Source: Alkalihalobacillus sp. FSL W8-0930 (lineage in GTDB: Bacteria; Bacillota; Bacilli; Bacillales; Bacillaceae_D). From it: a stretch of DNA of 64,000 bases. The notes beneath the pieces are model-generated. The model ran no database searches. It worked only from the letters and a program-made list of their open reading frames with translations, and had not been told where the DNA came from. Position numbers and translations under genes: made by a program. This document shows, piece by piece, positions 11,590 to 14,358 of this stretch. The first letter of the stretch is position 1; every line of letters starts with the position of its first letter. The DNA lies in NCBI GenBank assembly GCA_037965595.1, contig CP150183.1:434001-498000 (forward strand), in the 5' to 3' direction.

Positions 11590-11641
11590 AATAAAGAATG
11601 TCAGATAATTTGACAAGTGTCGTATTTTGGCGAATTTCGTA

Positions 11642-11650
11642 TGATATACT
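11642..11650 (+). promoter_or_regulatory. Extended minus-10 promoter of the codBA leader
   Basis: TGATATACT is an extended minus-10 (TGnTATACT). A TTGACA occurs at 11610-11615 but is too far away (29 bp) to be its minus-35. Transcription would start near 11657, just ahead of the structured leader. Confidence 0.5.
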
Positions 11651-11669
11651 TCCATCAAACATATAGTAA

Positions 11670-11795
11670 GCATCTCAGGGTTCCGCTCAATTTTCATACA
11701 TAAGAGGGGTCAGGTCCGGGGAAGCGGCATCTTTGATGCTTAAACTGGGAGGAAAAGTCCGGTGAAGAATCCATTGATTCTTCCCGGGCTTTTTT
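11670..11795 (+). ncRNA. Structured leader of codBA, ykkC-family riboswitch-like, with terminator
   Basis: The leader carries, in order, the ykkC-like blocks AGGGTTCCGC (near 11678), CAGGTCCGGGGAAGC (near 11711), a GCATC-TTT-GATGC hairpin, and CTGGGAGGAAAAGTCCGG (near 11745). GGGTT near 11679 can pair with AGTCC near 11756 as P1. The same 3' strand also forms a strong terminator: GTCCGG-T-GAAGAATC (11757-11771) with GATTCTTC-CCGGGC (to 11789), then six T. Aptamer and terminator are mutually exclusive, which predicts an ON switch. Known ykkC subtypes bind guanidine, ppGpp, PRPP or nucleotides; the ligand here is not assignable by eye. Confidence 0.6.
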
Positions 11796-11821
11796 GCTAA
11801 GAATGAATGGAGGAAGTAAAG

Positions 11822-13048
11822 ATGGGTAAGGATTATGTAGATCATGATTTTGCACTGGAGGCTGTAGCAGCATCGCACAGAAGAGGTTTCTGGAAAATGG
11901 CGATGCTGATGGTAGGCTTTACGTTTTTCTCAGCAAGTATGCTCGCAGGAGGGACACTCGGGCAAGGACTGACATTTTCACAATTCATTATCACCGTTCT
12001 TATCGGAAATCTTCTGCTTGGCGCATACACAGGCACGTTGTCATATATCGCTTCGAAAACAGGATTATCCACACACTTGTTAACACGATATTCATTTGGG
12101 CATCAAGGCTCTTATCTTCCTTCGTTTCTGCTTGGTATCACACAAATTGGCTGGTTTGGGGTTGGCGTTATGATGTTTGCGCTCCCCTTTCAAAAGGTTA
12201 CTGGAGTTAATATTTGGCTTGTTATTATTGTGGCGGGCATCCTAATGACTGCGACCGCCTACTTAGGCATACGCGCATTAACAATCCTTAGCTTTGTGGC
12301 TGTACCTGCCATTGCTGTTCTTGGAACCATATCAAGTACTCGAGCTGTAAGCTCAATGGGTGGGTTTGAAGAATTAATGGCCTACCAGCCACTGGAAACA
12401 ATTGGGATTGCTGCTGCCATTTCGATTTGTCTCGGCTCCTTTATTAGTGGCGGAACACTGACACCAGACTTTGCACGATTTGCTAAAACTAAAAAGATCG
12501 CCGTGTCGACCACACTGCTTGCCTTCTTCCTTGGAAACTCCTTAATGTTTTTATTTGGAGCGATAGGAGCCATTTCAACAGGACAAGCAGATATTTCAGA
12601 AGTGATGTTCACGCAGGGACTTATCATACCCGCACTCATCATCTTAGGTCTTAACATTTGGACCACTAACGATAATGCGTTATATGCATCAGGACTTGGC
12701 TTTGCAAATATTACAAAGCTACCTAAAAAGATACTTGTGATTTTTAACGGCATGCTCGGTACATTACTAGCTATGTGGTTGTACAACAACTTCATGAGCT
12801 GGCTAAACTTTTTAAATTTAACCTTACCTCCAATTGGAGCCATCCTCATCGTTGACTATCTTATTCGGAGCAAAGGTCAGAATGGAAAGCTTGAGGAGAG
12901 CTCTGTCCCTGTTCGTTATCAGGCCATTGTTGCTTGGTTCATTGGGTTACTATGCGCCTTATTCATACCAGGCATCCCGCCGCTCAACTCGCTACTCGGG
13001 GCCGGTATTAGTTATGTAGTTATTAGCAAGCTAACAGAGAAGAAATAA
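11822..13048 (+). CDS. codB: Cytosine permease (CodB-like, NCS1 family)
   Basis: 408-aa NCS1-family transporter with about twelve membrane segments. The start ATG 11822 has GGAGGA 7 nt upstream and follows the leader terminator. Identity as a cytosine rather than a hydantoin or purine permease rests on general NCS1 features (FISGGTLTPDFARFAK, TTNDNALYASGLG) plus tight linkage with an unmistakable codA 24 nt downstream. It would import cytosine with a cation. Confidence 0.9.
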   Translation: MGKDYVDHDFALEAVAASHRRGFWKMAMLMVGFTFFSASMLAGGTLGQGLTFSQFIITVLIGNLLLGAYTGTLSYIASKTGLSTHLLTRYSFGHQGSYLPSFLLGITQIGWFGVGVMMFALPFQKVTGVNIWLVIIVAGILMTATAYLGIRALTILSFVAVPAIAVLGTISSTRAVSSMGGFEELMAYQPLETIGIAAAISICLGSFISGGTLTPDFARFAKTKKIAVSTTLLAFFLGNSLMFLFGAIGAISTGQADISEVMFTQGLIIPALIILGLNIWTTNDNALYASGLGFANITKLPKKILVIFNGMLGTLLAMWLYNNFMSWLNFLNLTLPPIGAILIVDYLIRSKGQNGKLEESSVPVRYQAIVAWFIGLLCALFIPGIPPLNSLLGAGISYVVISKLTEKK

Positions 13049-13072: not shown

Positions 13073-14326
13073 ATGATTATTAAAAATGCAACCTTACGAG
13101 ATCGCGAAGGTAAATGGGATCTACTTATAAGTGACAAGGCAATCGAAAAAATCGATCGTCGTATTGAGGTGGAAGGAGAGGATGTACTAGATGCAGGTGG
13201 AAATATGGTCCTTCCGCCATTTATTGAGCCTCATATCCATCTAGATTCAACGATGACAGCTGGAGATCCAAATTGGAACCAGTCCGGAACTCTCTTCGAA
13301 GGCATTCAACGCTGGACCGAACGAAAAGAAAAGTTAACGCATGAAGACGTTAAACAGCGTGCGAAGAAAGCATTGACGTGGCAAGCTGCACAGGGAATTC
13401 AATTTGTACGCACACACGTTGATACAACAGACGAAAACCTAACAGCGTTTAAAGCACTTCTTGAAGTAAAAGAAGAAATGAAGCATTTAGTAGATGTACA
13501 GCTCGTAGCCTTTCCACAAGAAGGCATTCTCTCTTATCCAAAAGGAAAAGAACTTCTTGAAGAAGCTATTCAACTAGGGGCTGATGTGGTTGGTGGTATT
13601 CCTCACTTTGAAATGACAAGAGAAATGGGTGTCGAGAGCATCAATATTTCCTTTGCCCTAGCCGAAAAATATGGCAAGCTCTTAGATTTCCATTGTGATG
13701 AAATCGATGATGAACAATCTCGTTTTGTAGAAGTAGTCGCAGCAAAAGCCTACCAAACAGGTCTGGGCTCTAAAGTCACAGCTTCACACACAACAGCGAT
13801 GCACTCTTACAATAACGCCTATGTCGCTAAACTCATGCGTGTATTCAAGATGGCAGACCTAAACTTCGTCGCCAATCCACTAGTCAACACGCATCTTCAA
13901 GGACGCTTCGACAGCTATCCAAAGCGCCGCGGCATTACAAGAGTAAAAGAACTTCAAGAAGCAGGACTCAACGTCTCCTTTGGACACGATGACATCTTTG
14001 ATCCATGGTATCCACTTGGAACAGGCAATATGCTGCAGGTTCTGCACATGGGCCTACATGTCACACACCTAATGGGATACGATCAAATTAAACAATCCAT
14101 TGATTTCATCACAACCAACAGTGCCAAAGTACTCAACATCCAAGACCAATACGGAATCGAAGAAGGCAAACCAGCAAACCTCATCATCATGGGTGCACCA
14201 GACGAATTCACGATGATTAGACAGCAAGCGCCTGTCCTCTACTCCGTACGAGCAGGAAAAATCATCGCCCAAACAAAACCAGCAGATAGAATGGTTGATG
14301 GGGACGAAGTAGAATTTACGATATAA
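13073..14326 (+). CDS. codA: Cytosine deaminase
   Basis: 417-aa metal-dependent amidohydrolase closely matching Escherichia coli CodA as remembered. It deaminates cytosine to uracil, which uracil phosphoribosyltransferase then salvages. Diagnostic motifs are in place: metal site EPHIHLD near residue 57, [25 protein letters not shown] near 206, [12 protein letters not shown], and [10 protein letters not shown] with the catalytic Asp near 302. Full length, no frameshift. A ribosome binding site (GAGAGAGGG) precedes the ATG and it is in an operon with codB under the structured leader. Confidence 0.96.
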
Positions 14327-14332
14327 GATGTG

Positions 14333-14358
14333 AAGATCGCCCTTGGCGATCTTTTTTT
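14333..14358 (+). terminator. Rho-independent terminator of codBA
   Basis: AAGATCGCC (14333-14341), loop CTT, GGCGATCTT (14345-14353), then a T run. Strong terminator 7 nt after the codA stop. Confidence 0.9.

Follow-up and report, generated by a model that had tools for sequence, protein, structure and literature searches.

A ykkC-scaffold RNA overlapping a transcription terminator precedes the cytosine operon codBA in a few alkaliphilic bacilli

The full 64-kb stretch of DNA (hereafter, the window; C1:434001-498000 of a 3.89 Mb genome) carries genes for a cytosine permease and a cytosine deaminase (Table 1). Because both products exceed curated cut-offs, these are true CodB and CodA, encoded directly downstream of the leader as the original prediction had it. 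CodB is 96% identical to its counterpart from Alkalicoccobacillus gibsonii. The leader contains an RNA built on the ykkC scaffold and a terminator (together 11670-11795); codB begins 27 nt further on, with an ATG at 11822 and GGAGG at 11809-11813, and codA is followed by a terminator at 14332. This ykkC-scaffold attenuator before codBA is new, that is, previously unannotated, whereas the ykkC fold and codA as a target of ykkC subtype 2b are known.

Table 1. Features of the codBA locus; positions are those of the window.
Feature	Positions	Strand	Remarks
TnrA/GlnR-type candidate operator, TGTCAGATAATTTGACA	11599..11615	+	exact TGTNAN7TNACA
Probable -10, TATACT	11645..11650	+	TATGAT/TATGCT/TATACT/TATTTT at equal offset in relatives
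P1, 5′ strand, GCATCT	11670..11675	+	pairs with 11720-11725; covaries
ykkC signature block AGGGTTCCG, 5′ part of P1a	11677..11685	+	invariant in 10/10 codB leaders; matches RF00442
ykkC signature CAGGTCCG, 3′ part of P1a	11711..11718	+	
One-nt junction and P1 3′ strand (GGAAGC)	11719..11725	+	located where known ykkC RNAs have an AGA/AGY/AGG junction
P2 hairpin, GCATC-TTT-GATGC	11727..11739	+	compensatory GC/AU, CG/UA
P3 hairpin, ACTGGG-AGGAAAAG-TCCGGT	11744..11763	+	paired in 98% of cells; loop GGAAAAG in 10/10
Intrinsic terminator, AAAAGTCCGGTGAAGAATC-CATT-GATTCTTCCCGGGCTTTTT plus T run; overlaps P3	11753..11795	+	-24.3 kcal/mol
codB, cytosine permease	11822..13048	+	NF008241, 559.6 bits (cut-off 326)
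codA, cytosine deaminase	13073..14326	+	NF006685, 729.6 bits (cut-off 483)
Terminator at the end of the codBA operon	14332..14354	+	

No better example exists than the ykkC RNAs of a single RNA fold adapted to unrelated ligands, which comprise guanidine, ppGpp, PRPP and nucleoside diphosphates, with the ligand of at least one subtype (2d) still unknown. At gathering cut-offs, no Rfam family was matched anywhere in the 64-kb window. With permissive filters, the top match for the leader among 4227 families was RF00442 (Guanidine-I), spanning the full model (1-107) but scoring 23.7 bits (E 0.046), which falls short of the guanidine-I gathering cut-off of 63; this model gives 30-38 bits to the codB leaders of other species. 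We collected ten homologous codB leaders, the window included, with three from the same genus (L059-L061), three from further genomes of the family (L062-L064) and three from genomes of other families (L123, L168 and L170). A covariance model built from 7 of these leaders (R1) scores the window leader at 115.9 bits, picks up the remaining three at 72, 55 and 46 bits, and independently recovers, from about 30 further genomes, guanidine-I RNAs at the sites that RF00442 also identifies; models of the codB leaders retrieve RNAs of the guanidine-I, ppGpp and PRPP classes from other genomes. Thus, homology to the ykkC fold is supported both ways, RF00442 finding the codB leaders and the codB-leader models finding ykkC RNAs. 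The elements of the superfamily scaffold, AGGGUUCC...GGUCC of P1a and an A-rich P3 loop, occur in order together with P1, P2 and P3, and the ykkC blocks on which the original prediction was founded are indeed present in the right order, at 11677-11685, 11713-11718 (GGTCCG) and 11745-11760 (CTGGGAGGAAAAGTCC), with the terminator at 11753-11795. The ykkC-scaffold RNA upstream of codBA is real: although the proposed check against Rfam models stays below the cut-off, the model of the codB leaders and the covariation described below, together with the reciprocal matches, bear out the ykkC-like aptamer.

In an alignment of the ten leaders produced by model-based alignment (A4), 98.6% of cells in the structure pair, 6 pairs show changes on both sides, and the covariation score was reached in 0 of 500 shuffles, with the reservation that several of the ten leaders are near-duplicates, so that the covariation stems from few independent events. 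When the partners are slid by one column, pairing drops to 41-53%. The P1a helix comprises 11678-11685 and 11711-11717. For P3, we adopted the register ACUGGR/UCCGGU; GGA/UCC, with a 7-nt loop, is broken by an A.C mismatch in L123 and L170, and yet another register (GG/CC with the loop AAAAGU), which keeps the S-turn and whose positions never vary, may also form. Candidates for a P0 helix at the 5′ end, CUUC/GAAG or AUCAA/UUGAU, were rejected as inconsistent among relatives; P0 is reportedly what Peselis and Serganov (2018) call an "add-on helix" in their title.

The arms of the terminator (11753-11771 and 11776-11794, followed by TTTTTT) are conserved with compensatory change in L062, L064, L168 and L170. 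The 3′ strand of P3, UCCGGU (11758-11763), lies inside the 5′ arm, and therefore P3 and the terminator are mutually exclusive. Thus, the terminator does share a strand with the aptamer, as originally proposed, but this strand belongs to P3 rather than to P1, the 3′ strand of which is at 11720-11725. The full leader folds with the terminator at -48.5 kcal/mol, compared to -31.2 kcal/mol with P1, P1a, P2 and P3 forced and -43.0 kcal/mol with P1, P1a and P2 only; forcing P3 costs about 12 kcal/mol relative to the terminator fold. Across species, the 5′ arm AAAAGUCCRGUGAAG (11753-11767) is 97% identical, whereas the 3′ arm drifts, varying in step with terminator pairing. Because of this asymmetry, the 5′ arm appears to be constrained beyond the terminator, which points to a second role in the aptamer. 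The shared-strand layout is that of validated ykkC ON switches, and given that the published guanidine-I and PRPP switches work in this manner (PMC5912903), the codBA leader would, by analogy, have the same polarity, formation of the aptamer preventing that of the terminator. The ON logic of the original prediction accordingly gains support from an intrinsic terminator that excludes part of the aptamer.

The ykkC subtypes are distinguished by residue 49 (A in guanidine-I, a pyrimidine in PRPP and ppGpp RNAs), the A74-C78 stretch, G96 and the P0 tails, and C75-A76-C77-C78 (ACACC, in J2/3) contacts PRPP and pairs with G96 (PMC6031431). We compared the codB leaders with 67 reference ykkC RNAs sorted by downstream gene, namely, 34 guanidine-I (SMR transporters), 14 ppGpp (ilvE, ilvB, ABC transporter), 12 PRPP (purE, purB, codA-like, pbuX) and 7 NDP (NUDIX) RNAs. 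The triplet 3′ of GGUCCR is AGA in 31 of the 34 guanidine-I RNAs, AGC or AGU in 13/14 ppGpp and 12/12 PRPP RNAs, and AGG in 7/7 NDP RNAs. The codB leaders instead have GGG (4, among them the window), GGA (3), AGA (2) or AGG (1), and the triplet lies inside a lengthened P1 in at least nine of the ten, one pair switching between UA and CG. Hence the unpaired AGA of guanidine-I, with its marker A at residue 49, gives way in the window to a GGG that is base-paired in P1, and the pyrimidine 49 found in every PRPP RNA occurs in none of the ten leaders. The ACAC of J2/3, present in 24/34 guanidine-I, 14/14 ppGpp and 12/12 PRPP RNAs (with CAC in 7/7 NDP RNAs), is missing from nine of the ten codB leaders, the window included. 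By contrast, the P3 loop GGAAAAG is found in all ten codB leaders but in 0 of the 67 other ykkC RNAs. The codB leaders have no conserved 5′ tail complementary to their 3′ tail, GUGAAG, and hence no P0 tails.

Overall, the codB leaders have in common with guanidine-I RNAs (RF00442) the order of P1/P1a/P1b, P2 and P3, the AGGGUUCCG and GGUCCG blocks, an A-rich P3 loop, a P3 strand shared with the terminator and the lack of P0, and differ from them in the absorption of the junction triplet in P1, the loss of ACACGG, the changed P3 stem and loop (GGAAAAG), the genomic context (codBA rather than guanidine transporters) and scores of 23.7-38 bits against a cut-off of 63. With the ppGpp (2a) and NDP (2c) RNAs, they share the scaffold but neither the AGC junction, ACACCG and AUCAG/CUGAU P0 of the former nor the AGG junction, GCACC, GAAC/GUUC tails and NUDIX/HAD gene of the latter, and the associated genes (ilv, NUDIX) differ from codBA. 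Judged by these residues, the codBA leader combines the ykkC scaffold with none of the known pockets, and the idea of a PRPP- or nucleotide-sensing subtype loses its footing, the residue-level PRPP, ppGpp and NDP markers all being absent. The codB-leader model scores guanidine-I RNAs highest among the ykkC classes, PRPP RNAs reaching 14-28 bits. One leader, L170, retains ACAC (not ACACC) and the AGG triplet; it looks like an intermediate nearest to the ancestral state, which fits descent from a guanidine-I-like RNA.

Among 397 genomes of the order, R1 matches above 45 bits occur solely before codB, and searches at the level of the class (369 genomes) and of the phylum (353) yielded none beyond the window's own, in overlapping draws that add up to about 1,000 distinct Bacillota genomes and under stricter scan filters, such that rare instances may be missed. 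In none of the three draws did the variant precede a gene other than codB; the weaker matches examined are guanidine-I, ppGpp or PRPP RNAs. The variant is carried by a few alkaliphilic bacilli and, within these genomes, is associated with codBA only. The window's genome also contains two ordinary guanidine-I RNAs (L001 and L002, at 679654 and 3341667), both above the cut-off (84.7 and 80.2 bits) and followed by genes that read like small multidrug-resistance transporters. PRPP-type RNAs (L191-L195) precede a codA-like gene and pbuX; two of these, L194 and L195, appear to be guanine-PRPP tandem RNAs upstream of a xanthine permease gene of the pbuX type (TIGR03173, 543.8 bits), and purine uptake does not figure in the list of PRPP-riboswitch targets consulted.

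Most Bacillota relatives control codB through the PyrR-binding attenuator (RF00515), which likewise acts by transcription attenuation but is a different RNA of opposite logic; a PyrR box is present in 45 of 50 other CodB-like leaders of the order (L123-L175 set). Given that the window's genome still has PyrR-type sites, at 2.25 Mb, codBA appears to have moved from PyrR control to that of a ykkC-type RNA, which replaced the attenuator. In the codB tree, ykkC leaders fall into two clades, with 2 label changes compared to 9.5 in shuffles. Within the family, three genomes in which codB has a PyrR leader (G006, G030 and G032) carry a different codB clade, a contrast that suggests exchange of codBA together with its leader. 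In the loci compared, neighbouring genes differ outside the genus, and codB and codA alone follow the leader. The two-clade tree and the differing neighbours indicate that the leader and codBA travel as a unit.

The promoter region suggests a further input. The TnrA/GlnR consensus is TGTNAN7TNACA (PMC6191146), and the sole exact match in the 64 kb is the candidate box at 11599-11615, a number within chance expectation (1.9), so that it is positional conservation alone that supports the box: its centre lies 71-75 nt 5′ of GGGTTCCG in eight of ten leaders (5 exact, 3 with one mismatch). The probable -10 would place the transcript start near 11657, and not downstream of 11720, where the original prediction could not have accommodated it, and the box near -50. 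TnrA activates from around -50. No consensus -35 was found upstream of TATACT, as expected for an activated promoter; a classical sigma-A arrangement was considered, with TTGACA at 11610, 24 nt from TATGAT, but is a poorer fit than activation through a TnrA box. The box suggests that initiation at codBA is under nitrogen-limitation control and that cytosine serves the cell as a source of nitrogen; codBA would then resemble an operon for nitrogen acquisition on which the RNA imposes a second condition. The promoter of L170 lacks the TnrA box and has TTGACA-N-TATAAT instead, overlapped by a CcpA-site-like TGTAAGCGCTTTA.

What, then, does the leader sense? A divergent PRPP riboswitch (2b), in which PRPP would turn codBA on and uracil released from cytosine would be captured, was the subtype that we favoured first: codA is commonly found downstream of 2b RNAs, and a tandem guanine-PRPP RNA before codA of Bacillus megaterium has been studied (PMC5912903), so that, contrary to the original prediction, codA is a published ykkC target. 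Moreover, PRPP logic suits salvage, the scaffold and ON regulation by antitermination are shared, and the PRPP-type RNAs before codA-like and pbuX genes are compatible with this reading. However, it is contradicted at the residue level by the lack of pyrimidine 49, by the loss of ACAC in nine of ten leaders and by the absence from every codB leader of the P0-forming tails (GAAAG-type at the 5′ end, GGUAGGUUU at the 3′ end); the PRPP RNAs score no better than guanidine-I with the codB-leader model, and the Rfam search of the window found no guanine aptamer in tandem. We therefore consider this subtype unlikely. Model scores put guanidine-I nearest to the codB leaders, and it also has no P0 helix, but relocation of a guanidine-I riboswitch before codBA with guanidine sensing retained is very unlikely, considering that the marker-A junction positions are paired in P1 with UA/CG covariation, that ACACGG is lost and the loop AUAAAAG has become GGAAAAG, that codBA has no link to guanidine, and that the same genome has two normal guanidine-I RNAs in their usual context. 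The original prediction held guanidine and a new ligand to be equally open; a new ligand is favoured, and the equal standing fails with the absence of most guanidine-I pocket residues.

A ykkC relic that binds no small molecule, acting as a plain attenuator or read by a protein, would account for the missing pocket residues of every known class and for the strong terminators. Nevertheless, it seems improbable, given that P1, P2, P1a and the P3 loop persist, with compensatory changes, in leaders whose codB proteins are as little as about 60% identical, that the shared strand is 97% conserved where a terminator alone permits drift, and that invariant docking sequences in the loop and P1a are unexpected in a relic. 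Nor is it probable that the leaders belong to a group already described, either subtype 2d or part of the published 2b/codA set. Published work places subtype 2d nearest to guanidine-I (PMC5912903). However, 2d RNAs are associated with EamA/TauE transporters (PMC7266159), none of the matches examined is followed by a gene of this kind, and the literature search found no link between codB and a ykkC RNA other than 2b.

The codBA leader is thus probably a transcription-attenuating ON riboswitch of ykkC (guanidine-I) descent, a separate variant with a remodelled pocket. If codBA is indeed a nitrogen-source operon, cytosine or a related compound acting as an inducer would be a likelier ligand than a general nucleotide signal, and substrate induction by cytosine or a close pyrimidine is our leading, albeit tentative, guess. 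The complete scenario, in which a guanidine-I scaffold lost its old pocket, acquired a new one for cytosine or a close pyrimidine and became a natural riboswitch placed behind a nitrogen-control promoter, is more doubtful. If true, it would add a further ligand to the ykkC fold, and we know of no earlier natural riboswitch for a pyrimidine base. The combination of a rebuilt pocket with a single, well-understood target operon for cytosine uptake and deamination makes the list of potential ligands unusually small. The variant could show how a scaffold replaces its pocket yet retains a docking contact, and would be a case of a PyrR attenuator swapped for an RNA sensor at identical genes.

Under this putative riboswitch mechanism, the transcript would begin near 11657, and ligand bound as RNA polymerase passes would hold P1/P1a, P2 and P3 together, the P3 loop docking on P1a in the manner of other ykkC RNAs; UCCGGU would then stay in P3, and codBA would be read. 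Without ligand, 11753-11771 would pair with 11776-11794 and transcription would stop at the T run. With the TnrA/GlnR box tying initiation to nitrogen limitation, codBA would need nitrogen shortage and the ligand together.

Taken alone, the window aptamer has an unremarkable free energy (z -1.2), and a rival fold, in which 11667-11674 pairs with 11735-11742, is the one of minimum energy. In these segments (TAAGCATC/GATGCTTA), the 5′ strand of P1 perfectly complements the 3′ strand of P2; this fold, which is confined to the window and the relative nearest to it, could represent an OFF-state pairing.
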